Assembly (NCBI GenBank): GCA_022788085.1
Contig: JALEWA010000229.1
Coordinates: 1 to 42,552, forward strand
Direction: 5' to 3'
DNA length: 42,552 nt
Source: Lachnospiraceae bacterium
Lineage (GTDB): Bacteria; Bacillota; Clostridia; Lachnospirales; Lachnospiraceae
Shown: piece by piece, positions 1 to 13,314 of the stretch
Position numbering within the stretch: the first letter of the stretch is position 1
How the letters are laid out: each line of letters opens with the position of its first letter
Program-made: the position numbers and the translations under genes
Notes under the pieces: model-generated
The model's input: the letters and a program-made list of their open reading frames with translations, nothing else
Database searches by the model: none
What the model was told of the DNA's origin: nothing

Positions 1-2058
1 ACTTTCATCAAAGTTTGCAGATGTTGGTTGATACCAGCTATATTGTGAGAAATAATTATTCACAGCCTGGTCACTAAAGGTTCTTCCATGACGTGCAAAT
101 ATTTCATAGACTGCCAATCTTAATTCATACTGTGATAAATGACTGATATCACTGTCTGTAAGATTCACAGAATTACTATATTCCAGCAAATAACCATTTG
201 AAGAAACGTGCCTTACACGAGCATCCATTCTGTTTCCTCCAAGAACTGCATTGAAATAATCCCAGAATTCCAATACCTGGCAGTTGTTTCCTGTTTTGGA
301 AAGATTCTGGTTTATATAATCAAGAATGGTTGCTGCATCTGTTCCGGCATTGTTCATGGCAGATATCTTTTCTGTTACAAACCTTGCATATGCTTTCGTC
401 TTCTTTCCCTCAAAGTCCTCCTGTGTAAGTGTACCGTCATTTACATATTCCTGTAATTTAGACATAATCTCATTTAAAGCCGCTTCATCTCCCTGACTTA
501 CTGTTGTATTCAACTTTTCATTTGTCAAAAAGCTAATGTGTGCATTCTTAACATTCGCTTTTTTATCTACTACTTTCTGCCTGTCCACATACTGCATTGA
601 CAAGGAGTTAATACTAAGTCTGTCATATAAAGCCAGTTCTTCTTCAATGGCAGCAAAAGCACCCTCATAATCACCTGAATTCTGGCTTGCACTGACACGG
701 CTTTCAAAATCAGCGTACTGACCGGTTATAGCCTGTTCCAGAAGCTTACTCAGTGTATCCTTTTCTTCTGCCGTTACCTTTGCCAAATCTAATGCCGTAA
801 TTGCATCAATGGCTCCAATATAGTCTCCATTTGTCAACATCGTCTCATATGCTGTGAAGGTATCATTGTTCTCTTCTTCTGTTGAAATTTCTGTTGATTC
901 TTCTGTAGACTCTTCCGAGTCTGTTTTCACTTTCATGATACCTTCTCCCATAAACAGATTTCTACCAAGAATGAAAGCAGATACTCCCAGCGCTATAATT
1001 AAAATGCTTCCAACTACAATCAAAGCTATCATACCGCCATTTCCGCTTTTCTCCTTTTTCTGCGGTTTTTCCTTCTTTTTTCCCTTTTTCCCGGTTTCAG
1101 GAGGTACCATTCCTCCTACCGGTCCGGTATATGGCTGTGGCTGAACAGGCATCTGTGGTTGCATATATACCTGTGGTTGTACAGCCGGATCCGGCTTTTG
1201 AATTGGCTGCGGCTGAGCAGTTTGCGCATTCTCACCATAAAATGCCTTCCGGAAAGCAGTCATTGCCCGAAAGCGCTTTTCTCCATACACGTTAAGCCCC
1301 ATCATAAGAGCAGCTTCCTCTGCTGTCGCTATCGTAATGCCTAATTGAGAAGGTTTCTGCAACGTATCATGATTCAATCTCGTATAAGCATCCTGCGGCA
1401 CTGTCCCTGTAATGCACCTGTAAATAGTCGCACACAAAGAATAAACATCCGTTCCCGGATTTATTTCCTGCTGTTTACGATATAATTCTATAGGTGTATA
1501 ACCAACACCTGCATCTGATATCTGTCCCTCGATACAGCCAAAACCGATTAATTTCAAATTTCCTTTATTCGTAAATATCAGATTGTCCGGAGAAATATTC
1601 TGATGTATCAGACCTTTTCCATGCAATATTGACAACGAATCCATAACTGGTGCCATCAATTCTTTTATTCTCTTTACCGGAAACTGTTTACCACTCCCTG
1701 ACAAATATTTTTCCAGACTTACGCCCTCTACATATTCCATAATTGTATAAGCTGTCCCATTTTGTTCAAAGACATCAAAAACGTTCACAATGGATTCCAT
1801 CCCTATATTCTCTTTTAGAATCATTGACTCCCTTATGAACTGTTTTTTTCTTTCTTCAAAACCTTCTTTAGGAGTAACTAATATACTGTTCTCCACACGT
1901 TCGCAAAGCTTTGATGGGAAAAACTCTCTTACTACACCCCTTCGTCCTGTAGCCATATCCATACCGTCATAGGTAATACCTAGTGGATTCTCGCCCATTA
2001 CATTTTTTATCTGGTATTTATCTTTTAAAATTGTATTGGATTCCAAATATTTACTCAT
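1..2058 (-). CDS. Membrane pseudokinase with C-terminal YARHG domain (partial, runs off left edge)
   Basis: The frame is open from ATG at 2058 to position 1 (686 codons, no stop), so the C-terminus lies outside the window. The first ~270 residues have a Hanks-kinase layout, but every catalytic position I can place is altered: the glycine loop reads MGENPLGITY, the VAIK lysine region reads VVREFFP, the HRDxKxxN loop reads HQNISPDN and DFG reads GFG. A Pro/Gln-rich linker, a Lys-rich patch and one membrane segment (about residues 345-365) follow. The rest should be extracellular and ends in a YARHG-type motif (YEIFARHGR...FSQYSWY). This is a likely pseudokinase: a scaffold or regulator for the active kinase at 5053-7089. 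It is the last visible gene of the eight-gene minus-strand operon, 16 bases after the previous stop. Confidence 0.85.
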   Translation of the reverse strand, partial: MSKYLESNTILKDKYQIKNVMGENPLGITYDGMDMATGRRGVVREFFPSKLCERVENSILVTPKEGFEERKKQFIRESMILKENIGMESIVNVFDVFEQNGTAYTIMEYVEGVSLEKYLSGSGKQFPVKRIKELMAPVMDSLSILHGKGLIHQNISPDNLIFTNKGNLKLIGFGCIEGQISDAGVGYTPIELYRKQQEINPGTDVYSLCATIYRCITGTVPQDAYTRLNHDTLQKPSQLGITIATAEEAALMMGLNVYGEKRFRAMTAFRKAFYGENAQTAQPQPIQKPDPAVQPQVYMQPQMPVQPQPYTGPVGGMVPPETGKKGKKKEKPQKKEKSGNGGMIALIVVGSILIIALGVSAFILGRNLFMGEGIMKVKTDSEESTEESTEISTEEENNDTFTAYETMLTNGDYIGAIDAITALDLAKVTAEEKDTLSKLLEQAITGQYADFESRVSASQNSGDYEGAFAAIEEELALYDRLSINSLSMQYVDRQKVVDKKANVKNAHISFLTNEKLNTTVSQGDEAALNEIMSKLQEYVNDGTLTQEDFEGKKTKAYARFVTEKISAMNNAGTDAATILDYINQNLSKTGNNCQVLEFWDYFNAVLGGNRMDARVRHVSSNGYLLEYSNSVNLTDSDISHLSQYELRLAVYEIFARHGRTFSDQAVNNYFSQYSWYQPTSANFDES

Positions 2059-2074
2059 CTCTTTCACCCCATCG

Positions 2075-3706
2075 TTAATTAATACTAATATCAGTAATGC
2101 AGGTATTCTGATATGTAGTTCCCTCGTATACATCCATAATTTCTATCTTTAAAGAATTTGTTCTTACAGGATTTATGAAATTGACCTGGCATGGCTCATA
2201 AAAGTTATCTTCCAGTTCAAACTGTCTTTGTGAACCATCAGAAAAAGTAATTTGTATCATTTTTACACGATTATTCTTTTCATAGTCATCACGGCTTTTC
2301 CAATTTCCATTACGAATCGTAATACCATTCAATTCATGCGCTTCATCCAAAGATATGGAAATATATTCTCCTATGCCGTTTCCTCTTACGCCTTCTACCC
2401 ACATGGTATCTTCATTAGAATCAAAGGCATTGTCTAAATCATATCCTTGCAGAGATGAAGAAGACTGTACATCCGTAATAGCATAATTATTTACTCTTTC
2501 CCGTTTTATTGGCTTCTGACTGATAAAGTCGCTTTCTGATTCACCGTCATATTGCTTCGACTTATATACAACCCTTATACCACATTCACTATCTGACTGT
2601 TTGGTTGTATAACGGAACGAATATAAGTTTTCCTGTAATTGAAAGATTTCATAATAAATATCATACAAATCATTCATAGAAGAAATGGCATAGAATTCAC
2701 CGCCACTCTCCTTGGCTATCTCTTCCATATCCTGTGTCCAATAGGCCTGATTCATAGATGCAATAATATAAATAGGTACATGATAATACTCTGCAAGAGA
2801 AATCAGCTCCTCCTTGGAAATACTGCTGCTGTTATCTTCTCCATCCGTAAAAGCAAGTACATATTTCTGTCCCTGCTGATTCAGTGCCTGATACAGACTG
2901 TTTTCCAAAGTATCATACAGCGCTGTTCCACCTCCGGTATGCAAACCGTTCAACTGATTGCTGACTGCCGAAATATCATTGGTATAATCAATTAACGTGT
3001 TCCAGTTATTGTCAAAAGTTGTCAGGGATACATAATAGCCTCCACCCTGCATCTGCTTTAGTAATTCCTGCGCTGCCATACACAGCTGTCCGATAGAGTT
3101 ATCCATACTGCCACTGACATCCATGACCATGGCTACTGACCGTTTCGAAACATCATTTTCCGAAAGTTTGAGACTTCCTGTCATCTCTACCCACTCTTTA
3201 TCACTGTCAGATTCCAATACCTGAACCTGCTGTGGCTGTAAGTCGCTAATGAAATTTCCTTCTAAATCCTCTAAAGAAAAATATACTGTGATATTTGGGA
3301 ATTCACTGGTATCAATCTGAACAATATTTAACTCTGCCGGTTCTCTGTTCAGTTCCTGTTCTAATTCATCGAGAAGTTCCTTTAATTCCTCATCACCGGT
3401 TTCACGATAGCCTCTCTTTAAGATTTTAACAGCCTTTTCCAGCTCTCCCATTGCAATATATGCTTCAGCCATACCAAGATAAGCTTCTGTATTCTTAGGT
3501 TCCAGTTCAATTGCTATCTCAAATGCTGCGATTGCTTCCTCATACTCCATACTCAGTAAGTACTGTTGTCCCAAATCTAACTGCTCTTTTACCTTTTTCG
3601 CAGAGCCGTTCATATACATATATAGAATAATATTGACCACAACCAGCAGTATCACCAAGATTGAGATTATAAAAATTAAGACTTTTTTTCCATTCTTCAT
3701 TATCAT
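2075..3706 (-). CDS. TPR-vWA-discoidin-like surface protein
   Basis: An N-terminal membrane anchor (about residues 6-30) is followed by TPR repeats (about 35-110), a von Willebrand A domain with MIDAS motif DVSGSMD and TFTDGED-like second motif, and a C-terminal discoidin/NADase-associated glycan-binding-like domain (NYAITDVQSS... LDNAFDSNEDTMWVEG). The topology places all folded domains outside the cell. I chose the ATG at 3706 because GGAG sits six bases upstream; an ATG at 3724 abuts the preceding stop but lacks a good ribosome site. vWA plus discoidin-like modules suggest metal-dependent adhesion or ligand binding on wall glycans; the ligand is unknown. It sits between the LRR gene and the pseudokinase gene of the operon. 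Confidence 0.85.
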   Translation of the reverse strand: MIMKNGKKVLIFIISILVILLVVVNIILYMYMNGSAKKVKEQLDLGQQYLLSMEYEEAIAAFEIAIELEPKNTEAYLGMAEAYIAMGELEKAVKILKRGYRETGDEELKELLDELEQELNREPAELNIVQIDTSEFPNITVYFSLEDLEGNFISDLQPQQVQVLESDSDKEWVEMTGSLKLSENDVSKRSVAMVMDVSGSMDNSIGQLCMAAQELLKQMQGGGYYVSLTTFDNNWNTLIDYTNDISAVSNQLNGLHTGGGTALYDTLENSLYQALNQQGQKYVLAFTDGEDNSSSISKEELISLAEYYHVPIYIIASMNQAYWTQDMEEIAKESGGEFYAISSMNDLYDIYYEIFQLQENLYSFRYTTKQSDSECGIRVVYKSKQYDGESESDFISQKPIKRERVNNYAITDVQSSSSLQGYDLDNAFDSNEDTMWVEGVRGNGIGEYISISLDEAHELNGITIRNGNWKSRDDYEKNNRVKMIQITFSDGSQRQFELEDNFYEPCQVNFINPVRTNSLKIEIMDVYEGTTYQNTCITDISIN

Positions 3707-3724
3707 TCTCTGCTCCGTAATCAT

Positions 3725-4864
3725 TTAATAACCGTTCTTCAGATATTCTACCTTTGACACCGGAGACATATCAGAAATGTTTGTTCCTACAATATTTAAG
3801 TAAGTAAGTTTGTCAAGATTACTCAATACAGTAAGATCGTAAATATTTGTATGTGCCAGATTCAGTTCTTCCAAATTCAATAATTTCTCCAAAACGGTAT
3901 AATCTTCCATGTAGTTTTCGGCAAGACTGAGTCTTCGCAAACTAACCATTGAGGACAAAATATCAATGTTATTTATTGGCATATTATCCAGATACAAGGT
4001 ATCCATCATCTTCATCTTCCTGAGTGCTGATAAATCATTGATCTGATTGCCGCTTAGATTCAGATATTCCAAATCGTTCAAACTTTCCAACGCTTCTATA
4101 TCAGTTAGCCGGTTACCGCTTACATCAAGATGTACCAGATTCTTTAATTTTTTTACAGATTCGATACTCTCTATCTCATTATTGCTTACATCGAGCCAGA
4201 CAAGATTCGATAATTTCTCCAACGGCTCTAAATCCGTAATCTGATTATCAGAAAGATACAGTTCCTCCAGATTTCTGAAATTCTTTAACATTTCTAAATC
4301 AGATATATGGCAGTTATAAAGATGCAGACTTGTAATATTCGGGAAATCCTCTAAATCACTCAAATCAGAAATGTTACTATCATACAGATAGAAATCCGAA
4401 ATCTCCCATAAATCACTCAGCATGACATCACGATCCACAATTCCTGTCATTTGACGGACTGCCTGTTCAACGCCGGAATCCTTCCACTCGATATCCTTGT
4501 CCTTCTTACCGGCTTCTTCCCAGGTAATCATCGTAATTTCTCCTGCAAGAGCTTCATCCTGGGTCATCTTGTAGCCTTTCTCCATAGTATCTCTTGCCTT
4601 CTTTATCTCACCACTTGCCTTATATGCCTGAGCGAGTCCCTGATACGCTTCTACATTCTTATTATCCTCTGCAAGAACTTCCTTATAAGCTTCTATCGCT
4701 TGCTCATATTTCTCATCTTCCAGATATTCCTGCCCTTTTGCAAGCTGCCTGTCTATTTTGGAAGAAGGATTACTCATGAACATAACCAGCATGACACCGT
4801 TTATGCCCAGCAACAGCAGAAGTATCAGAATAAATATGATAATAATGCCCGTCTTTTTTTTCAT
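3725..4864 (-). CDS. Membrane-anchored TPR and leucine-rich-repeat protein
   Basis: One N-terminal membrane segment follows Lys-Lys-Lys-Thr. Two TPR units (about 40-110) come next, then about ten LRRs of 22 residues of the internalin/LRR_4 type (for example LEELYLSDNQITDLEPLEKL) to the C-terminus. No LPXTG or wall-anchor motif is present, so the N-terminal helix is the anchor and the LRR solenoid is extracellular. The ATG at 4864 is preferred because GGAG lies six bases upstream; an in-frame ATG at 4876 has no clear site. The TPR block near the membrane resembles those in the neighbouring vWA and kinase proteins, which suggests a shared docking mode. The role is likely protein-protein recognition. 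Confidence 0.87.
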   Translation of the reverse strand: MKKKTGIIIIFILILLLLLGINGVMLVMFMSNPSSKIDRQLAKGQEYLEDEKYEQAIEAYKEVLAEDNKNVEAYQGLAQAYKASGEIKKARDTMEKGYKMTQDEALAGEITMITWEEAGKKDKDIEWKDSGVEQAVRQMTGIVDRDVMLSDLWEISDFYLYDSNISDLSDLEDFPNITSLHLYNCHISDLEMLKNFRNLEELYLSDNQITDLEPLEKLSNLVWLDVSNNEIESIESVKKLKNLVHLDVSGNRLTDIEALESLNDLEYLNLSGNQINDLSALRKMKMMDTLYLDNMPINNIDILSSMVSLRRLSLAENYMEDYTVLEKLLNLEELNLAHTNIYDLTVLSNLDKLTYLNIVGTNISDMSPVSKVEYLKNGY

Positions 4865-4893
4865 AATAATCTCCATTTCCGTATACTGTATCT

Positions 4894-5022
4894 TTAGTAC
4901 TCATCCTTTAACTTTCTCATCAGTTTCTTACCAACAGCCTTTCCCATAGTAAGATATAAAATAAATATGACAATGGATGTCATCAGACATAATGCGCCCG
5001 CTATCACTAAGATCATGCCCAT
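4894..5022 (-). CDS. 42-residue single-span membrane peptide
   Basis: A short frame from ATG (5022) to TAA (4894) encodes a hydrophobic helix (residues 3-26, starting MGMILVIAGALCL) and a basic tail (KKLMRKLKDEY). It fills the gap between the kinase gene and the LRR gene exactly, 30 bases after the kinase stop and 29 bases before the LRR start. A GGGTG about ten bases upstream is a possible ribosome site. I know no family for it. Position, strand and the clean hydrophobic-basic pattern favour a real small operon member, perhaps a subunit of the membrane complex. A non-coding spacer is the alternative. Confidence 0.6.
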   Translation of the reverse strand: MGMILVIAGALCLMTSIVIFILYLTMGKAVGKKLMRKLKDEY

Positions 5023-5052
5023 ATTCTTCACCCTGCTTTCTATCTGTTATCT

Positions 5053-7089
5053 CTACAGCCAGCCACCACTTTGTAGATCACGAATCATGTTATCCAACAT
5101 AAGTATCTCGGGATCTTCCACATTCTGCTGTTCATACAGTTCCTTACATTTATCATAATATAACTTTACGGTACTATAATCCCGCTGACTATTGTTCAAA
5201 TACTGCTGTCTGTCTGCTTCCAAGAAGGCAAGCCTTTTGTACACTCTGTAATTATCAGGATAATCTGCTGCCAATTTCATCAACACAGATTTAGAAGCTT
5301 CGAAATCCTGATTTTCTTCATATAATATTGCCATATTCTCCTGTAACTGATATGTCACATAACCATTTTGCATCAGCTCCTGAAATAATGACAACGCTTT
5401 CTGATTGTAGCTGACTAACTGATCGGGATGAGTATCGCCTTGTCTCATATATGCATCCGCAAGATATTCCGTAATTACCATTTTTGCCTGTGTATCTATC
5501 TGATTTCTTGCAGTTTCCAAAAGCTCCACTTCTTCATCCAGACGATTGTTATCACGTAATGCTGTTGCGCACAGTAAAACTGCCCGCTTTTCAAGAATTG
5601 CATCATCCGTAATATCTATGGTGGTTTTAAAATGTTCAATAGCCTCTTCAATTTGTTTTCTAACTACACAAAGTTCTCCTTCTGCATAATGAATGGAATC
5701 ATCTTCCAGTCCTAATTCTATCGCTTCTTCCAGGGCTTCCTCTGCCTGATACAGATTTCCCTGTTTTGCCAAAATAATGCAATAATCACGAAAATACAAG
5801 TTATTTGTCTGATTATATTTCAAGGCACTTTCCATTGCATTTTCTGCCTTACTGTAGTCTTCCAACTCATAATAAGAATTGGCTATCAGGTAGAATATAT
5901 CACCTACGGTCTGCTTTTGCGCATCGTCAGTAGTTTCTATAAGCTGCAAAGCTATGATATCGTTTCCTCTGTCAGCACATTCCTGATAAAGACCTGCCTG
6001 ATAATAGTAATATAATTCTCTTTCATAAGCCTCTACCCTGCTCTTATATTCTTCCTCTAAGGAAACCATAGCATCGATGGCTTTCTCATAGTTGCCTTTA
6101 CCGGCTATCTTCTCTCCCTCAAGCAGCAATGCCTGATAATTCTGCTCTCTTTCTATTCCTAACTGTCTGATACCCAGACCAGTTAGCATGCTTCCGGCAA
6201 AGAACAATACCAGGGAAGTAAAAAATAGCACTCTTTCCTTTCTCTTATGAGAAACGTAACGCCTGTCCAGCTTATAGCAGTTATTCACAGCATCCAGGTA
6301 CTCTTGTCCTGTCTGATATCGGTCATCCGGATTGTACTCTATCATCTTATCAATAATAAAGGCAAAACCCTCACTTACACCCGCTATCTCTTCTGCCGGC
6401 ATCCGTGTATTAAAATTGGTTCCGGGTGGAAATCCTGCCAGCAGGTGATACAATACGCAGCCAAGGCTATATATGTCGGAGCGCAGATCAATGGAGATAG
6501 GCACCTGCGCCATGCCGGCAGTATGATAATAGGTCTGTAGTTGTTGAACATCCCTATATTGTTCCGGTGAAGAATAACCTGCACTAATTCCTAATGTTGC
6601 TTTCATGGATGAATCAATGGCAATGGAAATATTGAAGTCTATCAAACAGATGTGTCCATCCGGTGTCAGAATAATATTGGCCGGCTTAATATCAGAATGG
6701 ATGATTGCCGGTTTCTGATTATGTAAATAAGCCAATGCTTCCCCAAGCTCTTTTGCCCACTGCAATACATATTTCTGTGCAAATCTGCCATATTGGGTGA
6801 GAGCCTTGTCCATAGAAATGCCGGGTATAAAATCCATTACCGTATATACTGCTTCCGGTGTCTCTATAAAATCATATACTCTTGGAAGATATGGATGTTT
6901 TAACTTCTTTAATACATCTGCCTCTTGTCTGGATTGTATCTTACCACGTACCTCATCACGGATTCTCTTTACCACTACATCTGTCTGAAGTCGGATATGC
7001 CTTGCCTTATATACAACTCCGCCGCCTCCGGAACCGATTTCTCCTAAGATCTGGTAGGTTCCTCCTAATATCATGCCTGTCTCCAGCAT
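5053..7089 (-). CDS. Transmembrane Ser/Thr protein kinase with extracellular TPR domain
   Basis: Residues 10-270 form a PknB-type kinase domain: a glycine loop (GEIGSGGGGVVYK), Lys41 in VVVKRI, catalytic Asp133 in HSDIKPANI, and Asp151 in DFN replacing DFG. HRD to HSD and DFG to DFN are tolerated variants, so I expect activity. The APE region reads YSSPEQ. One membrane span follows at about 287-306, then about 370 residues of TPR-like helices outside the cell instead of PASTA repeats. The sensor half may therefore bind a protein rather than muropeptides. The start LETG...GGTYQILGEIG is typical of the family and has GGAGG eleven bases upstream. It is the only kinase in the operon with a full catalytic set, and no PP2C phosphatase gene is visible nearby. 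Confidence 0.92.
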   Translation of the reverse strand: MLETGMILGGTYQILGEIGSGGGGVVYKARHIRLQTDVVVKRIRDEVRGKIQSRQEADVLKKLKHPYLPRVYDFIETPEAVYTVMDFIPGISMDKALTQYGRFAQKYVLQWAKELGEALAYLHNQKPAIIHSDIKPANIILTPDGHICLIDFNISIAIDSSMKATLGISAGYSSPEQYRDVQQLQTYYHTAGMAQVPISIDLRSDIYSLGCVLYHLLAGFPPGTNFNTRMPAEEIAGVSEGFAFIIDKMIEYNPDDRYQTGQEYLDAVNNCYKLDRRYVSHKRKERVLFFTSLVLFFAGSMLTGLGIRQLGIEREQNYQALLLEGEKIAGKGNYEKAIDAMVSLEEEYKSRVEAYERELYYYYQAGLYQECADRGNDIIALQLIETTDDAQKQTVGDIFYLIANSYYELEDYSKAENAMESALKYNQTNNLYFRDYCIILAKQGNLYQAEEALEEAIELGLEDDSIHYAEGELCVVRKQIEEAIEHFKTTIDITDDAILEKRAVLLCATALRDNNRLDEEVELLETARNQIDTQAKMVITEYLADAYMRQGDTHPDQLVSYNQKALSLFQELMQNGYVTYQLQENMAILYEENQDFEASKSVLMKLAADYPDNYRVYKRLAFLEADRQQYLNNSQRDYSTVKLYYDKCKELYEQQNVEDPEILMLDNMIRDLQSGGWL

Positions 7090-7127
7090 TTATTGCTCTG
7101 CCTCCACATTCATCTTCTATTGCAAGA

Positions 7128-7161
7128 AAACGCTGAAAGCATTTCTGCCCTTTCAGCGTTT
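7128..7161 (-). terminator. Intra-operon hairpin with short T run (leaky terminator or processing site)
   Basis: On the minus strand AAACGCTGAAAG pairs perfectly with CTTTCAGCGTTT over 12 base pairs and is followed by TTTTC. It lies between the repeat-protein gene and the kinase gene, so it may lower kinase expression relative to upstream genes. Confidence 0.55.
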
Positions 7162-7193
7162 ATCCCTATCGTCTTGCTTTCTACTTCTTTTAT

Positions 7194-8936
7194 TTAAAAT
7201 AAATCATTTAATAAGTAATACAGATCACTGTCATACAATTCATCCATAATATCTTCACTCAGATCTGTGAACTCGTCTTCATCTGCATTTCCTAAGTCAA
7301 ATTCCTTGCCCTGATATTTTTTCATCTTGGCACCTTCTGAAATAGTCAGTTCAAGATTTTCTATATAATAATAACTACCTATTCTATCAATCTTAATTGT
7401 CATACCGGAACCGGATTTCGTAAGTTTACCACTGAAGCTTGTGCCAGACAGGTTAACTGAAAACTTACCACTTTCATAATTATATTCTAAGCTTCCTATC
7501 TGTTCACTATCACTTCCATATCTCTCCTTTAAGGTAAACTCTTCCTTAGAGCCATTATCCTCACCCTTAATCAGCAATTTGTATGAACCTGACTTAAGTG
7601 CCATATTCTGCATTCTGTAGTCTCCGCCTTCAAAGCAAAACTCAACTTTTTGGTCCATATCTTCGCCATCAATCTTGATTGCTGCAAGCTTATTCTTATA
7701 AATATAGAAAGAAATTTCAATATCATCGAAATCTTCAAACTCTTCTCTTAAATCTTCAAACTCTTCTGCAATATCGTCTGTATCCAGCATATCATTATCG
7801 TACATGGAAGCGTAATAATCATTCATAACAGCTTCTATACCATCTACGATATTTATCAGATTATCACTTGTAACAGTTGCTACATAACCTTTACAAGTTA
7901 CATCCTTTTCATTGATTGTATACTCTTCCTTCTCTGCATTTGCAAACTTAAGGCTCTTAAATTCTTTTACAATAACCTTCTTAATCTCTTCGGATATATT
8001 CTTATTACTACTTTTTGAAAGAGATTCTAAAAGAGAATTCAGTTCATCAATATCATCAATCTCGTCTACTAAATATCCTTTATTGTTCTGCGTATAATTA
8101 TATACAAAAACATTCTTTGATATAGCAGGAATCTGAGCTTTCACGGATTTAGAATCAATGCCTGCAAGAACCTCCAGTTTTGGATAACCATCAAAGTCCA
8201 ATGTGATTGATACCTGTTTCTCTTTGTCATTGACTCTTAATTCGCCACTCATCTTATCGCCATCCATTTCACCGGAAGCAGAAACAGTATACTTATTTCC
8301 ATTCAAAACATTTAATGGTTCTAAAGCTTCCACAAAATGTGGTGCATCCTTGAGTGTATTGCTTGTTGCAAGAATTACCTTATCAGCTTTTCCTAAAAGC
8401 AGACCGGAATTAATAATCACAAACACCACTACTGCCAATGCAACAACCGCTGCAACAACACCAATCAACAGTGGCAGTTTATTATTTTTCCCTTTTGGAT
8501 TTTGTTCCGGCATTGGATTATAGCCTGCTCCCTGACCAATTGGCATTCCTGTCATTGGGTCAAAGCCTGCTGCTCCCTGATTGGAAGCTGCTCCCTGACC
8601 GATTGGCATTCCTGTCATTGGGTCAAAGCCGCCTGCTTCCTGCTGTGGTGCTCCCTGTCCGATTGGCATTCCTGTCATTGGGTCAAAGCCGCCTACTTCC
8701 TGCTGTGGTGCTTCCGGCTGACCAATCGGTTCTCCTGTCATTGGATCAAAACCGCCTACTTCCTGCTGTGGTGCTTCCGGCTGACCAATCGGTTCTCCTG
8801 TCATTGGATCAAAGCCGCCTACTTCCTGCTGTGGTGCTTCCGGCTGACTAATCGGCTCTCCTGTCATTGGGTCATACTGCACACTGCTTGCATCATTCTC
8901 TTCAATTGGTTTTCCTGTCATCGGATCAAAAGTCAT
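7194..8936 (-). CDS. Membrane protein with seven cytoplasmic DPMTG repeats
   Basis: The first ~150 residues carry seven copies of (F/Y)DPMTG(K/E/M)PI, spaced mostly 20-21 residues apart in a Pro/Gln/Gly-rich linker; the repeat threonines fall at 7, 25, 46, 67, 88, 108 and 129. A Lys-rich stop and one membrane helix (about 154-176) follow, then a ~400-residue extracellular domain rich in Asp, Glu, Lys and beta-prone segments that I do not recognise. The orientation puts the repeats in the cytoplasm on the same side as the kinase and the FHA domain. Start ATG has TAGGAG at good spacing. The threonines could be phosphorylation sites read by the FHA protein; this is inference. The repeat region also produces long antisense frames, which I regard as artefacts. 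Confidence 0.85.
   Translation of the reverse strand: MTFDPMTGKPIEENDASSVQYDPMTGEPISQPEAPQQEVGGFDPMTGEPIGQPEAPQQEVGGFDPMTGEPIGQPEAPQQEVGGFDPMTGMPIGQGAPQQEAGGFDPMTGMPIGQGAASNQGAAGFDPMTGMPIGQGAGYNPMPEQNPKGKNNKLPLLIGVVAAVVALAVVVFVIINSGLLLGKADKVILATSNTLKDAPHFVEALEPLNVLNGNKYTVSASGEMDGDKMSGELRVNDKEKQVSITLDFDGYPKLEVLAGIDSKSVKAQIPAISKNVFVYNYTQNNKGYLVDEIDDIDELNSLLESLSKSSNKNISEEIKKVIVKEFKSLKFANAEKEEYTINEKDVTCKGYVATVTSDNLINIVDGIEAVMNDYYASMYDNDMLDTDDIAEEFEDLREEFEDFDDIEISFYIYKNKLAAIKIDGEDMDQKVEFCFEGGDYRMQNMALKSGSYKLLIKGEDNGSKEEFTLKERYGSDSEQIGSLEYNYESGKFSVNLSGTSFSGKLTKSGSGMTIKIDRIGSYYYIENLELTISEGAKMKKYQGKEFDLGNADEDEFTDLSEDIMDELYDSDLYYLLNDLF
8538..8930 (-). repeat. Tandem repeat block encoding DPMTG motifs
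   Basis: Seven imperfect units of about 60-63 bases encode the cytoplasmic repeats. Units 2-4 are almost identical at DNA level, which points to recent expansion and possible copy-number variation between strains. Confidence 0.9.
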
Positions 8937-8981
8937 TTCGTTTCTCCTATTCTCTCATTTGTTTCATTTTATATATATATT

Positions 8982-9374
8982 TTAGCCTAAAGGTGTACCA
9001 CATTTACTGCAGAATTTATAGTTTCCATCACTCTGTGTACCACATCTAGGGCAGAATTTTACAGCTCCAACGGTCTGTGCCGTTCCCAAAATCTGTTTTT
9101 CCTCGTATGCCAGCTGCTCGATTGCTCTCTTTTGCTGCTCAATCTCATCATACTTTCCCATAATCTGCTGAACAATCTGTAAAACATCCTGTTCATAGCT
9201 TTCACCCATTATTGTTTTTCCATATACAATTTCACCTATATTCATTTTCAACGTTTGTATATCTTTCTCCAATGTCGAAATATAGGTTTTACATTTGGAC
9301 TCTTCCATAAAGCTATTTGTCTTGACATTGATAGCCGTAATGCCTTTTGAAAGTGATTCTTTTAGTGAAGCCAT
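8982..9374 (-). CDS. Coiled-coil protein with C-terminal zinc ribbon
   Basis: A 130-residue soluble protein. Residues 1-100 are helical, Glu/Lys-rich and probably coiled coil; the last 30 hold two CxxC knuckles (FCPRCGTQ and FCSKCGTPLG) of a zinc-ribbon fold. There is no signal peptide or membrane segment, so it should act in the cytoplasm. It is the second gene of the operon, 58 bases after the vWA-FHA gene and 45 bases before the repeat protein. Zinc-ribbon adaptors of this kind often sit next to FHA or kinase genes; an adaptor role is inference. Start ATG follows a TGAGGAGG-like site. Confidence 0.8.
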   Translation of the reverse strand: MASLKESLSKGITAINVKTNSFMEESKCKTYISTLEKDIQTLKMNIGEIVYGKTIMGESYEQDVLQIVQQIMGKYDEIEQQKRAIEQLAYEEKQILGTAQTVGAVKFCPRCGTQSDGNYKFCSKCGTPLG

Positions 9375-9432
9375 AATTTCCTCCTCATAAATAAATGTTG
9401 CTTAACTATGCTTTATATATATTCCGGATATA

Positions 9433-10980
9433 CTACATCCGGTCATAGTTCATTTGTTGAAATTCAAAGCGCATTTCCAATCGTCCCAGTGTAATGATAT
9501 TACCTGATACAAGCTCTGTATCCGAAAAAATTCTATTTCCATTTATGAATGTTCCATTTGAAGATTGTAAGTCTTTTATCATAAGCTTACTGCCCATTGT
9601 ATAAATCTCACAATGTCTGCCCGATACTGACTGGTCATAATCTAATATGATCTGACATGCCGTTTTGCTCCTGCCTATTATTACATCTCTGTTAAAAGGA
9701 ACCCTGAAATTTCTGCCCGGCGAATGAATATCCGTCAATATGATATATGCTATAGGATACTGTTGTCCGGATAACGGTATCGCATGTCCATCTGCCAATG
9801 CTTCCTTCAATTCCAATTCTCTTTGTGTCATCAGAATCTGCGTTTTCTTTATTTCCATTTGTCGCTTTTTCTTAAAATGACGAATAAGAATAAATACAAT
9901 CATTGCAATCGCAACGATAACCCAGAATACAATCACAAACACAATAAACTTTAATGCTGATGCTCTATACAAATCATCTTCATTCTCTTGTATCGTTGTT
10001 TCCTCAACAGAGGATTCTTCTACTGTTTCTTCCTGTGTCTCTTCCGTTATTTCTTCTGTGCTTTCAGGGGATTCAATTATCTCCTGCTGTTTTACCTGTT
10101 GAGGCATCTTCATTTCTATGGAAACACTTTGTCCTTGAATATTAACTTTTACAGACTTCCTGCTTCCATCCATCATATCTGCAGGAGGTGTTGCCACAAT
10201 CTTTACAATCTGCTTATCCTCACTCAGTGCATTCACTATGGAACTTATTTCCTCTGCAGAATCCAATAGAAAATATCCGGCACCGCTAAGTCTTGACAGT
10301 GCAAAAAGTTTTTCGAGTTCTTCGCTATTTTTGCTTGTCTTGCAACCGATTGTATAAATCGGATACGTATTTTCTTTCATTAATTGATTCAATTCATCTG
10401 TGGTATACCCTATTGATTCATTGTCAATTCCATCAGCAATAATAATGATCCTTCTATATACATCCTTAGGAGCCGTAACATACTCCCTGCTTAAAAGCTC
10501 ATACAACATATCTGTTATATAAGTTTCCTGATTCTGATAAGTAATCTCTTCTACTGCATTTATTAATGTATTATAATCACTGGTATAACCTGTCAGGTAA
10601 GTAATCTCTCTGCTGAACACACCTATTGCAATTTTCTCATTTCCGGCTTTTGCATTGATAAAATTTTGCAAAAAATCGGATATTCTTCCTCTTGCATTTT
10701 GAGGTATGGATAAAGAATTATCAATTAAAATCAGAGTTTCAAATTCTGAGTCTTCTATACTTTGGCAGGTTATCCGGCTACCTTCCGAAGTGCCAATCTG
10801 AACTGTAATTCCTGACAAATCACTTCCTGCATTCTTCACATAAATTGATATATCAGTCTCACCGGTATTTGCTTCCATAATGGTTGCTGTTCCTTCTGCC
10901 TGGCATATTCTGCCATATAGTATGAGAACCAGCATGAAAACGAAAACTCCGTTTCTTAACGATTTGCCTTCTCCCTTCAT
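9433..10980 (-). CDS. Secreted vWA domain, membrane span and cytoplasmic FHA domain
   Basis: I start at ATG 10980, where GAGGGA lies eight bases upstream and the product opens with a signal peptide (MKGEGKSLRNGVFVFMLVLI). An in-frame ATG at 11073 would bury this signal. A vWA domain follows (about 40-270) with MIDAS-like DNSLS, then an acidic Glu/Thr linker, a membrane helix (about 330-355), a basic patch (HFKKKRQ) and a C-terminal FHA domain with the expected GRS, SGRHCEI and SSNGTFINGNRI motifs. FHA domains bind phosphothreonine, so this protein can link an outside vWA event to kinase output inside. It is the first gene of the eight-gene operon. Confidence 0.9.
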   Translation of the reverse strand: MKGEGKSLRNGVFVFMLVLILYGRICQAEGTATIMEANTGETDISIYVKNAGSDLSGITVQIGTSEGSRITCQSIEDSEFETLILIDNSLSIPQNARGRISDFLQNFINAKAGNEKIAIGVFSREITYLTGYTSDYNTLINAVEEITYQNQETYITDMLYELLSREYVTAPKDVYRRIIIIADGIDNESIGYTTDELNQLMKENTYPIYTIGCKTSKNSEELEKLFALSRLSGAGYFLLDSAEEISSIVNALSEDKQIVKIVATPPADMMDGSRKSVKVNIQGQSVSIEMKMPQQVKQQEIIESPESTEEITEETQEETVEESSVEETTIQENEDDLYRASALKFIVFVIVFWVIVAIAMIVFILIRHFKKKRQMEIKKTQILMTQRELELKEALADGHAIPLSGQQYPIAYIILTDIHSPGRNFRVPFNRDVIIGRSKTACQIILDYDQSVSGRHCEIYTMGSKLMIKDLQSSNGTFINGNRIFSDTELVSGNIITLGRLEMRFEFQQMNYDRM

Positions 10981-11253: not shown

Positions 11254-12078
11254 TTATGATTTATTTTGTATATTTGTCATTATCTCATCAAACATTGTCC
11301 GGTAAGTTTCACCTGTATAGTGGATTTCATCCTGAAAGGTATCATGTGCAAGAAACCAATCATAATAGTCAAAATACTGATCCGGAAAAGCTTCTTTTAT
11401 TTTGGTATTAAAATCAATAATATCCTGATTATGTCTAGGAGGTAAATCAGGATGTTTGACTACCCATTCCTTCTCATCCAAAGGCGGTACGGATACAATA
11501 TATACCTTACTGTCTTTGAAAGTTTCATTCATCCATATTTTATAGTTATCTATGTATTGTTCTACGATTCCCGGCATAGTAACCATACTGGTACCATGAA
11601 TGCTGATAATATTCCAGCCTGCGATTTCCGGATGTTCTTCCATAATTGTTTTTATTCTTTCAGTACCATCCCCCTTGAGCCAGTCAAAAGTCCCCATTAC
11701 CGGATCAAGAGATGTATGTACAATAAAAAGATTTTGATTATAAACCACTCCATCCACATCGGAACCATGTACCGCATACCCTTGTCCATCGGTAACGACT
11801 GCATGACTGTCTCCAATGATAATATATCCTTCCTTCTCCTTTTCCATGGTCTCGCTGCCGGATTCTGTTTCCTCTTCTGTTGTCCCTGTATGAGTTTCCG
11901 TATTTTGGGATTCCTCCTCCAGGGAAGCTTCCTGCGCAGACTCCTGTACCTGTTCTGTTTCCTCTATCTCCTCTGGTTGCTTTCTATTTCCCTTCATAAC
12001 CTGAAAAAACAGTAACCCTGCTAAAACAACTACTGAAAAAAGCAGAATCACCAATAATATATTTTCTTTACGTTTCAT
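11254..12078 (-). CDS. Membrane-anchored SGNH hydrolase-like protein
   Basis: The ATG at 12078 has GGAGGTG eight bases upstream, and the product begins with a charged tip and membrane helix (MKRKENILLVILLF), so I reject the longer frame from 12174. A ~70-residue Glu/Thr linker leads to a ~190-residue domain with block I GDSHA and block V DEIHYTG, the nucleophile Ser and the Asp-His pair of the SGNH family. Glycine and asparagine blocks II and III are less clear. The family includes esterases and O-acetyl transferases of wall or capsule glycans, so a role on the outer cell surface is likely. It diverges from the propeller-like gene at 12364, with which it may act. Confidence 0.75.
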   Translation of the reverse strand: MKRKENILLVILLFSVVVLAGLLFFQVMKGNRKQPEEIEETEQVQESAQEASLEEESQNTETHTGTTEEETESGSETMEKEKEGYIIIGDSHAVVTDGQGYAVHGSDVDGVVYNQNLFIVHTSLDPVMGTFDWLKGDGTERIKTIMEEHPEIAGWNIISIHGTSMVTMPGIVEQYIDNYKIWMNETFKDSKVYIVSVPPLDEKEWVVKHPDLPPRHNQDIIDFNTKIKEAFPDQYFDYYDWFLAHDTFQDEIHYTGETYRTMFDEIMTNIQNKS

Positions 12079-12188
12079 GTAACGCGCACCTCCAAACAGA
12101 TTATTACATAACAGTAACATATTATACAGCAATTTTCTTCTAATTACTAATATAAGTTGTTGAATCTTGTCCATTTATGCTATACTAT

Positions 12189-12363: not shown

Positions 12364-13314
12364 ATGAAAATTAATATAGGAAGAAAATCCATTCAGAAAT
12401 ATATATCATTTTCTCTTGCCATAATCATCTTTAGCATTTGTGTGTATTCTATCCCTGTATATGCGGCAGAAAACGGTTATTCTTATCTGCTTATGCCAAC
12501 ACAAATCACAAAGATTAATAACACTTACTTTATTGTTGACTGCAACCATAATCAAATCATTTACTCCGACAATCTTGGCACGGAATTAAGATATTGGAAG
12601 GTTATGACCAGAAATGTAGAAAAACCTCATGCCATTACGAGCGATGGAGAAATCTATATGGTCACCGATACCGATCAGAACCGTATTCTGACCTTTGAAA
12701 AAACATATGACGGATTCAAGCCTTTACAAACTTTTGAGAATGTTGGTATCAGACCACACTTTACTTATTATGACTATACGAATGAAATATTCTATGTATG
12801 GAGTTCAATGACCGGTGAAATGTTTCTGTATAAAAGAACACCAGGGACAAAATCTGTGACTTTGCTGGAAACGAAATCCATTCCTGAGCTTAATAACTGT
12901 TATGTACGCTCCTTTACCATATTGGGAGATGTCATTCTTTTTCCTGCGGTAGAAAGAAGCAGTATCCTCATGGTCAATAAAGATACTTTTGAAATCATAA
13001 ACGAGTATCCTGTTGCTGACAATATAGCCGGGATGGTACAGATTAGTGTTGTTGACGGTTACTTTTTCCTCACAATATCTACTGACAGACAATATAACCT
13101 ACAGGCTTCTACTGTTATCCGTGCAAAAAATCTGGAAGATTTCAGTACTGGAAATTATGAGAATCTCTACCATCTGTTTGGAAATAACGGTACCCCGTAC
13201 TATGTCTCCTGTTTTGATGGTTCCTACTATATGATTCATGAAAATGCAGCTCCTAACGTGTATCGTTTTCATGCAAAAGACGGTTCTATTTGCGATATAA
13301 AAGGTATGTTTTAG
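12364..13314 (+). CDS. Secreted beta-propeller-like protein
   Basis: A signal peptide with a typical cleavage site (IPVYAAENG, about residue 35) precedes ~280 residues of repeated beta-strand segments with Tyr/Asp/Asn-rich turns such as ITKINNTYFIVD and IYMVTDTDQNRIL, which resemble NHL or six-bladed propeller blades. There is no anchor, so it should be released or bound to the wall. The start follows AAGGAGACC. The gene stands alone on the plus strand, 44 bases after the MITE and divergent from the SGNH-like gene; such pairing suggests a joint role in surface glycan handling, but no enzymatic residues are evident. The stop is followed by a shared bidirectional terminator. Confidence 0.75.
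   Translation: MKINIGRKSIQKYISFSLAIIIFSICVYSIPVYAAENGYSYLLMPTQITKINNTYFIVDCNHNQIIYSDNLGTELRYWKVMTRNVEKPHAITSDGEIYMVTDTDQNRILTFEKTYDGFKPLQTFENVGIRPHFTYYDYTNEIFYVWSSMTGEMFLYKRTPGTKSVTLLETKSIPELNNCYVRSFTILGDVILFPAVERSSILMVNKDTFEIINEYPVADNIAGMVQISVVDGYFFLTISTDRQYNLQASTVIRAKNLEDFSTGNYENLYHLFGNNGTPYYVSCFDGSYYMIHENAAPNVYRFHAKDGSICDIKGMF

Follow-up and report, generated by a model that had tools for sequence, protein, structure and literature searches.

To what system does a row of eight genes belong that sets Ser/Thr kinase folds beside vWA, tetratricopeptide repeat (TPR) and leucine-rich repeat proteins? The question is raised by the first 10,980 positions of contig JALEWA010000229.1 of a Lachnospiraceae bacterium (assembly GCA_022788085.1), analysed here as one stretch of 42,552 nt that we call the window. 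The original prediction, made from the letters alone, took the row for one self-contained operon for signalling across the envelope and overlooked type VII secretion. The eight open reading frames (ORFs) are indeed present, all on the minus strand and separated by gaps of about 0-104 bp, and profile searches with Pfam and NCBIfam uphold the domain content that had been assigned to them. The row is not a self-contained unit, however, but continues into the core genes of a type VII secretion system (T7SS), and judged by gene order and profiles the eight genes are almost certainly part of a T7SS locus.

The window starts at a contig end (position 1) that interrupts gene 8, and its own contig, C42, shares an exact 141-nt end overlap with C105, another contig of this genome (C and L numbers are our handles for contigs and loci). 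C105 starts with the last part of gene 8, followed in order by a pectinesterase-like gene, an EssC-type ATPase gene, a LytTR regulator (PF04397, E 1e-21), a 225-aa ORF, YukD (PF08817, 29.9 bits against a cut-off of 27), a 117-aa ORF and WXG100 (five matches on C105, three of them above cut-off). The ATPase, 1660 aa long, scores 827 bits with TIGR03928 (cut-off 778) and carries an N-terminal FHA domain at residues 117-180 (PF00498, E 9e-14). The 225-240-aa ORF was modelled through its L102 orthologue (24 sequences; predicted local distance difference test, pLDDT, 86.6), and in a Foldseek comparison with the PDB the best 17 rows were all EspG or EspG-complex entries, with TMq of 0.41-0.55. Two relatives support the arrangement independently of the contig join. 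In L081 a single row comprises genes 2-8, gene 1 and EssC; in L083 genes 1-8 lead into the beginning of the pectinesterase-like gene that also lies behind gene 8 on C105. By profile and model, the core order of the Lachnospirales T7SS locus is EssC-LytTR-EspG-YukD-WXG100.

The row itself agrees with a membrane-spanning Ser/Thr phospho-signalling set whose recognition domains are predicted to lie outside the cell. A simple hydropathy scan finds a hydrophobic helix in every gene of the row except gene 2, and it is compatible with the sorting of signalling parts to the inside and recognition parts to the outside that had been proposed, although in genes 3 and 6-8 the charges beside the helix settle the matter only weakly. 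The FHA protein had been listed as a separate part; its FHA domain stands, but the same protein, gene 1, is also a vWA protein, and this vWA-transmembrane (TM)-FHA architecture is the hallmark of the locus. No terminator-like site was found between the genes on the minus strand, where the three matches are all intragenic; this is weak evidence.

Synteny beyond the source strain had been proposed as the check on the set, and it was found: genes 1-8 recur in three other Lachnospiraceae genomes. L083 has them in order, L082 has them in order with one extra TPR gene ahead of gene 8, and in L081 gene 1 is relocated behind gene 8. Gene 3 was further found in L089, L091 and L102, gene 5 is confined to the window and these three relatives, and gene 8 with its ectodomain occurs in few loci, with 11 hits in total.

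How widely, then, does the hallmark protein travel with T7SS? Among 200 sampled genomes of the family Lachnospiraceae, 10 have full-length gene 1 (E<1e-20), whereas any match at E<=0.001, mostly to FHA only, is found in 103; EssC is present in 51. All ten genomes with full-length gene 1 have EssC (p 5.7e-7; 2.2e-6 without the window's own genome), and among genomes with the window's EssC subclass, defined by a two-piece profile match, nine of 14 have full-length gene 1. A scan of named-species genomes, seeded by two vWA peptides, gave 63 loci, with L098 and L099 both retained. EssC or WXG100 lies within 10 kb of gene 1 in 46 of them (EssC in 36, WXG100 in 43). Gene 1 of good length and score is present in 60, PP2C in 48, a kinase in 43, LytTR in 30, an EspG-like ORF in 29 and YukD in 28, all of these being lower bounds because many stretches are cut. 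On iteration the profiles of five genes (gene 1, gene 7, EssC and two of C105) drifted towards FHA, vWA or helical domains that other proteins share; the counts therefore depend on bit-score and length cut-offs that were chosen afterwards. From these neighbourhoods, vWA-FHA, a kinase and T7SS make up the wider core, usually together with PP2C, and the eight-gene version is one lineage within it.

The two kinase genes of the row differ in their catalytic positions. Gene 4 has all five intact (K-E-D-N-D), and gene 8 reads R-E-N-N-G, so that its lysine and both aspartates (the catalytic one and that of DFG) are gone. K-E-D-N-D is kept in 62 of 66 non-identical kinase rows, the four exceptions being gene 8 of the window, L081, L082 and L083. 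Since the L089 orthologue of gene 8, with kinase and YARHG domains, retains its catalytic residues, the gene 8 pseudokinase has most likely arisen by decay of a working kinase.

The vWA motif DxSxS is present in 61 of 61 aligned gene 1 rows, and FHA residues R, S, H and N are all kept in 44 of those 61. In the FHA domain of EssC, S is kept in 36 of 38 and H in 35 of 38 ungapped rows, and N in 40 of 40; the window's own copy has GK, S, H and N. The repeats of gene 3 read FDPMTG in L081-L083 (5-7 copies) and FDP[E/N/K]TG in L102 (7 copies), so that FDPxTG is retained in 5-7 copies in four relatives. Nevertheless, the L089 orthologue has one copy and that of L091 none with T-G, and the proposal that the kinase phosphorylates the DPMTG repeats found no support. 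A phospho-acceptor role for them may be conjectured as possible, and we doubt that they are the main phospho-site.

Which known systems does the locus resemble? Subtypes T7SSc-j were described in 2024 by Garrett, Higginson and Palmer (PMC11217815), whose account often places kinases, PPM phosphatases and FHA proteins with them and suggests, by analogy with the type VI secretion system (T6SS), that T7SS is phospho-regulated. The original prediction that no described system has this set is thus right only in part: T7SS subtypes with these three components are published, while a vWA-TM-FHA protein is not described in the main text of that paper, in which 'lachnospir' is also absent. The window core (FHA-ATPase, LytTR, EspG, YukD, WXG100) appears closest to T7SSi of Vallitalea, a host of the same order as the window's genome; as described there, T7SSi shares WXG100, YukD, an ATPase with N-terminal FHA, an EspG-like chaperone and a LytR-like regulator. 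That description differs in lacking vWA-TM-FHA, PP2C and the TPR kinase, and it reports T7SSi only from Vallitalea. With T7SSj and T7SSe, in the same account, the window shares a membrane Ser/Thr kinase, a separate FHA protein and a small single-helix protein; the PPM/PP2C phosphatase of these subtypes is missing at the window locus but present in 48 of the 63 related loci. The window kinase with its TPRs resembles TsjD, a TPR end being typical of the T7SSj kinase as presented there, and the FHA protein of these subtypes, TsxJ, is described with DUF6382 and no vWA, unlike gene 1. A Pfam scan of the eight genes and of 17 proteins of C105 revealed no DUF6382-FHA protein; the window's genome has two PF19909 matches, of which the one listed lies on C113. 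No TsxI-sized ORF other than EssC was seen in C105:1-20000, by ORF sizes only and with no TsxI profile search.

Compared with T7SSb, the type of S. aureus and B. subtilis, the locus shares an EssC above the TIGR03928 cut-off, YukD and WXG100, and gene 8 is alike in layout to EssB, a pseudokinase with an ectodomain (PMC9600267). It differs in that EssB and EsaA were not found by profile on the window side: PF10140 (EssB) has no match at E<=1 in the window's genome and exceeds its cut-off in none of 14 genomes, and TIGR03929 (EsaA) has no match in the window's genome and matches three of 16 genomes; these matches stay under its cut-off, and none of the three genomes has full-length gene 1. EssC trees, which were built without published T7SSc-j ATPases, group the window ATPase with mostly Lachnospiraceae sequences in a clade that is well supported and separate from T7SSb-like loci. 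From the first tree four repeated contigs were dropped, and three of its 12 rows labelled as lacking gene 1 came from short contigs (L146, L149, L150); the second used 35 of the 52 earlier rows and 13 new ones, with three 'canonical T7SSb' rows labelled by gene order and size only. The T6SS kinase PpkA contains a vWA domain. In T6SS threonine phosphorylation a kinase, a phosphatase and an FHA protein (PpkA, PppA, Fha) likewise gate a secretion machine, as outlined in PMC3953482; the machine is another one, so the likeness is by analogy only. Published accounts of archaeal ArnA-ArnB likewise put FHA and vWA under kinase and phosphatase control of a pilus-like machine, in two separate proteins, whereas gene 1 is a fusion across the membrane.

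The module is not confined to T7SS loci. Seventeen of the 63 named loci lack both EssC and WXG100; ten of these carry at least two relatives of L119 locus proteins, and L130, with the gene order of that locus, was counted as the eleventh of the group. The other six (L082, L083, L097, L101, L133, L136) are cut or ambiguous stretches. The L119 locus encodes a T2SSF protein, DUF5702, a DUF6382-FHA protein, PP2C, vWA-FHA and two kinases, and we call it Tad-pilus-like on the basis of T2SSF and of pilin and peptidase features that we take to be of Tad type; L135 was classed with it solely via relatives of the DUF6382-FHA and WG-repeat proteins. In the Tad-like loci vWA-FHA is accompanied by a DUF6382-FHA protein, and in most by PP2C and/or a kinase. 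DUF6382 (PF19909) is nearly universal in the family: 192 of the 200 genomes have it, whereas all 14 control genomes lack it. On the gene 1 tree, the Tad-like proteins are scattered among those of T7 type, with at least three changes; one repeated contig was dropped from this tree, L130 was labelled Tad by gene order only, and L082 and L083 were labelled T7 although their stretches stop short of EssC. A single Tad clade was barely rejected (approximately unbiased test, p 0.048, quick tree), so one to three transfers between T7 and Tad-like loci are possible.

What would such a set do beside a secretion machine? At the level of sequence, the row can be followed into the T7SS core, and its conservation, its domains and its catalytic and binding motifs can be read directly. 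On these grounds we infer that the eight genes are probably the sensing and phospho-signalling half of the T7SS locus, with phospho-gating of secretion as the best mechanism. The gene 4 kinase would read the surroundings through its own TPR ectodomain and through neighbouring TPR-anchored surface proteins (leucine-rich repeat and vWA-discoidin), and would phosphorylate threonines of cytoplasmic partners, for which the tails of genes 1 and 3, gene 8 and EssC are candidates. The FHA domains of gene 1 and EssC would bind the phosphothreonines, and outside contact could in this way gate assembly or activity of the EssC channel. The gene 8 pseudokinase, similar in layout to EssB of T7SSb, would act as a scaffold, and in most relatives, not at the window locus, a PP2C phosphatase may reset the switch.

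Several observations weigh against this phospho-gating. Full-length gene 1 is missing in 41 of the 51 EssC genomes, so it is not a general T7SS part and marks one T7SS lineage; even in the window's EssC subclass five of 14 genomes lack it, three of these five on cut contigs. The named-locus scan favours close relatives because of its two vWA seeds. In the EssC FHA pocket, the R/K position is R or K in just 20 of 38 ungapped rows. PP2C has no match on C42 or C105, its matches in the window's genome lying only on C135, C68 and C170. The 11 Tad-pilus-like loci carry the vWA-FHA module with no T7SS genes at all, and with PP2C and/or a kinase they are what would speak for the earlier view of an independent signalling system that neighbours T7SS by chance. 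We consider that view very improbable, given the T7SS neighbourhood in 46 of 63 loci and the co-occurrence in all ten genomes, and the 11 exceptions sit in another pilus- or secretion-like locus.

The set could instead be mainly structural, genes 8 and 1 taking the place of EssB and EsaA in the envelope section of the channel, with kinase folds that serve for docking and not as a dynamic switch. The lost catalytic residues of gene 8, the precedent of EssB and the lack of above-cut-off EssB and EsaA matches in gene 1 genomes would all fit; with 62 of 66 kinase rows catalytically intact, PP2C in 48 loci and gene 8 with its ectodomain in so few, we hold this to be unlikely. It is still less probable that the surface proteins are central, as adhesins or receptors with exchangeable TPR-anchored ectodomains that hold target or host cells, while the kinase genes merely control their expression or envelope homeostasis. 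TM-TPR proteins are frequent in the named loci, and leucine-rich repeat, vWA-discoidin and vWA-lectin ends are of the kind this would require, but most of those scanned have no domain besides TPR, and the surface genes are less constant from locus to locus than FHA, PP2C and kinase. Going beyond phospho-gating of T7SS, we tentatively suggest, at somewhat short of an even chance, a portable trans-envelope phospho-switch (vWA-TM-FHA, TPR kinase, usually PP2C) that was fitted to two unrelated machines of Lachnospirales, T7SS and Tad-like pili, and coupled to contact through exchangeable TPR-anchored receptors, the second kinase decaying in the window's lineage into a pseudokinase scaffold.

Genes 6 and 7 have a common N-terminal helix-TPR part, which they also share with proteins of other loci. 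Such TM-TPR proteins, at a threshold of 60 bits that also picks up some WG-repeat proteins of Tad-like loci, occur in 30 of the 63 named loci, with at least three per locus in 11. Ten were scanned with Pfam: seven have TPR only, and three have an extra domain (leucine-rich repeats; vWA and C-type lectin; RHS-like repeats). Tandem helix-TPR rows comprise five genes in L092:252-5912 and seven in L117:7068-13846, with a further row in L126:18561-20414; some of these proteins differ in their C-terminal domains, for instance vWA and C-type lectin, and they may form an exchangeable receptor repertoire.

Further along C105 lie genes for a DUF4176 protein (presumably of a T7SS partner family), a 363-aa ORF, a TM-TPR protein and a lipase-like protein (PF11187). 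The stretch L065:10485-15449, with the DUF4176 protein, the 363-aa ORF and the lipase-like gene adjoining a lipoprotein-like ORF, is a candidate T7SS cargo region, and the lipase-like protein, with a helical C-terminal end judged by eye, is a candidate substrate. In the nearest relative (L081:11555-21518), nothing between the EssC and WXG100 genes matches the LytTR, EspG-like or YukD profiles. The window's genome has two more kinase/PP2C clusters of similar layout, L049 (C170) and L050 (C68), with PP2C beside a 561-aa kinase. Upstream of gene 1, L082 and L083 carry a relative of the window's SGNH/GDSL-like gene, and window positions 12364-13314 (plus strand) encode a 316-aa protein that looks secreted and matches nothing in Pfam or NCBIfam.

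Table 1. Features of the window and related loci. Positions are those of the window unless a locus is named.
Feature	Position	Strand	Description
Gene 1	9433..10980	-	Signal peptide, vWA (predicted outside; E 2e-11), one helix, FHA (predicted inside; E 1e-17)
Gene 2	8982..9374	-	130-aa zinc-ribbon protein; PF13240, 30 bits, cut-off 25, E 4e-7
Gene 3	7194..8936	-	Repeat tail (predicted inside), one helix, beta-rich ectodomain; model pLDDT 64.9
DPMTG repeats of gene 3	8534..8930 (approximate extent)	-	Exactly seven motifs, protein positions 4-130
Gene 4	5053..7089	-	Ser/Thr kinase (Pkinase E 4e-39), one helix, TPR ectodomain
Gene 5	4894..5031	-	45-aa peptide, one hydrophobic helix
Gene 6	3725..4876	-	Helix, TPR, leucine-rich repeats (Pfam)
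Gene 7	2075..3724	-	Helix, TPR, vWA, NADase-type discoidin domain; PF25302, NF047619 (136.5 bits, cut-off 38)
Gene 8	1..2133	-	Pseudokinase (Pkinase E 4e-22), one helix, YARHG (E 2e-13); 3' end on contig C105 (L065:1-213)
SGNH/GDSL-like gene, upstream	11254..12174	-	PF00657, 23.9 bits, cut-off 23.6
Tad-pilus-like loci with vWA-FHA	L119:1-11563		Also L104, L111, L115, L123, L128, L130, L135, L140, L141, L142

In this gut family 51 of the 200 genomes encode EssC, yet our literature search found no study of T7SS in Lachnospiraceae. The pair of an intact kinase in L089 and a dead one in the window makes the origin of T7SS pseudokinases testable, and the portable switch, if real, would illustrate a path by which a working kinase turns into an EssB-like pseudokinase. 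Its presence next to Tad-like pili as well would then make the module a general envelope control unit. If secretion is gated as we propose, outside contact would be coupled, directly and physically, through the vWA-TM-FHA protein to a phosphothreonine reader at the ATPase. Commensal Lachnospiraceae would then use threonine phosphorylation to gate a secretion machine, in much the way that T6SS is gated in Gram-negative bacteria.

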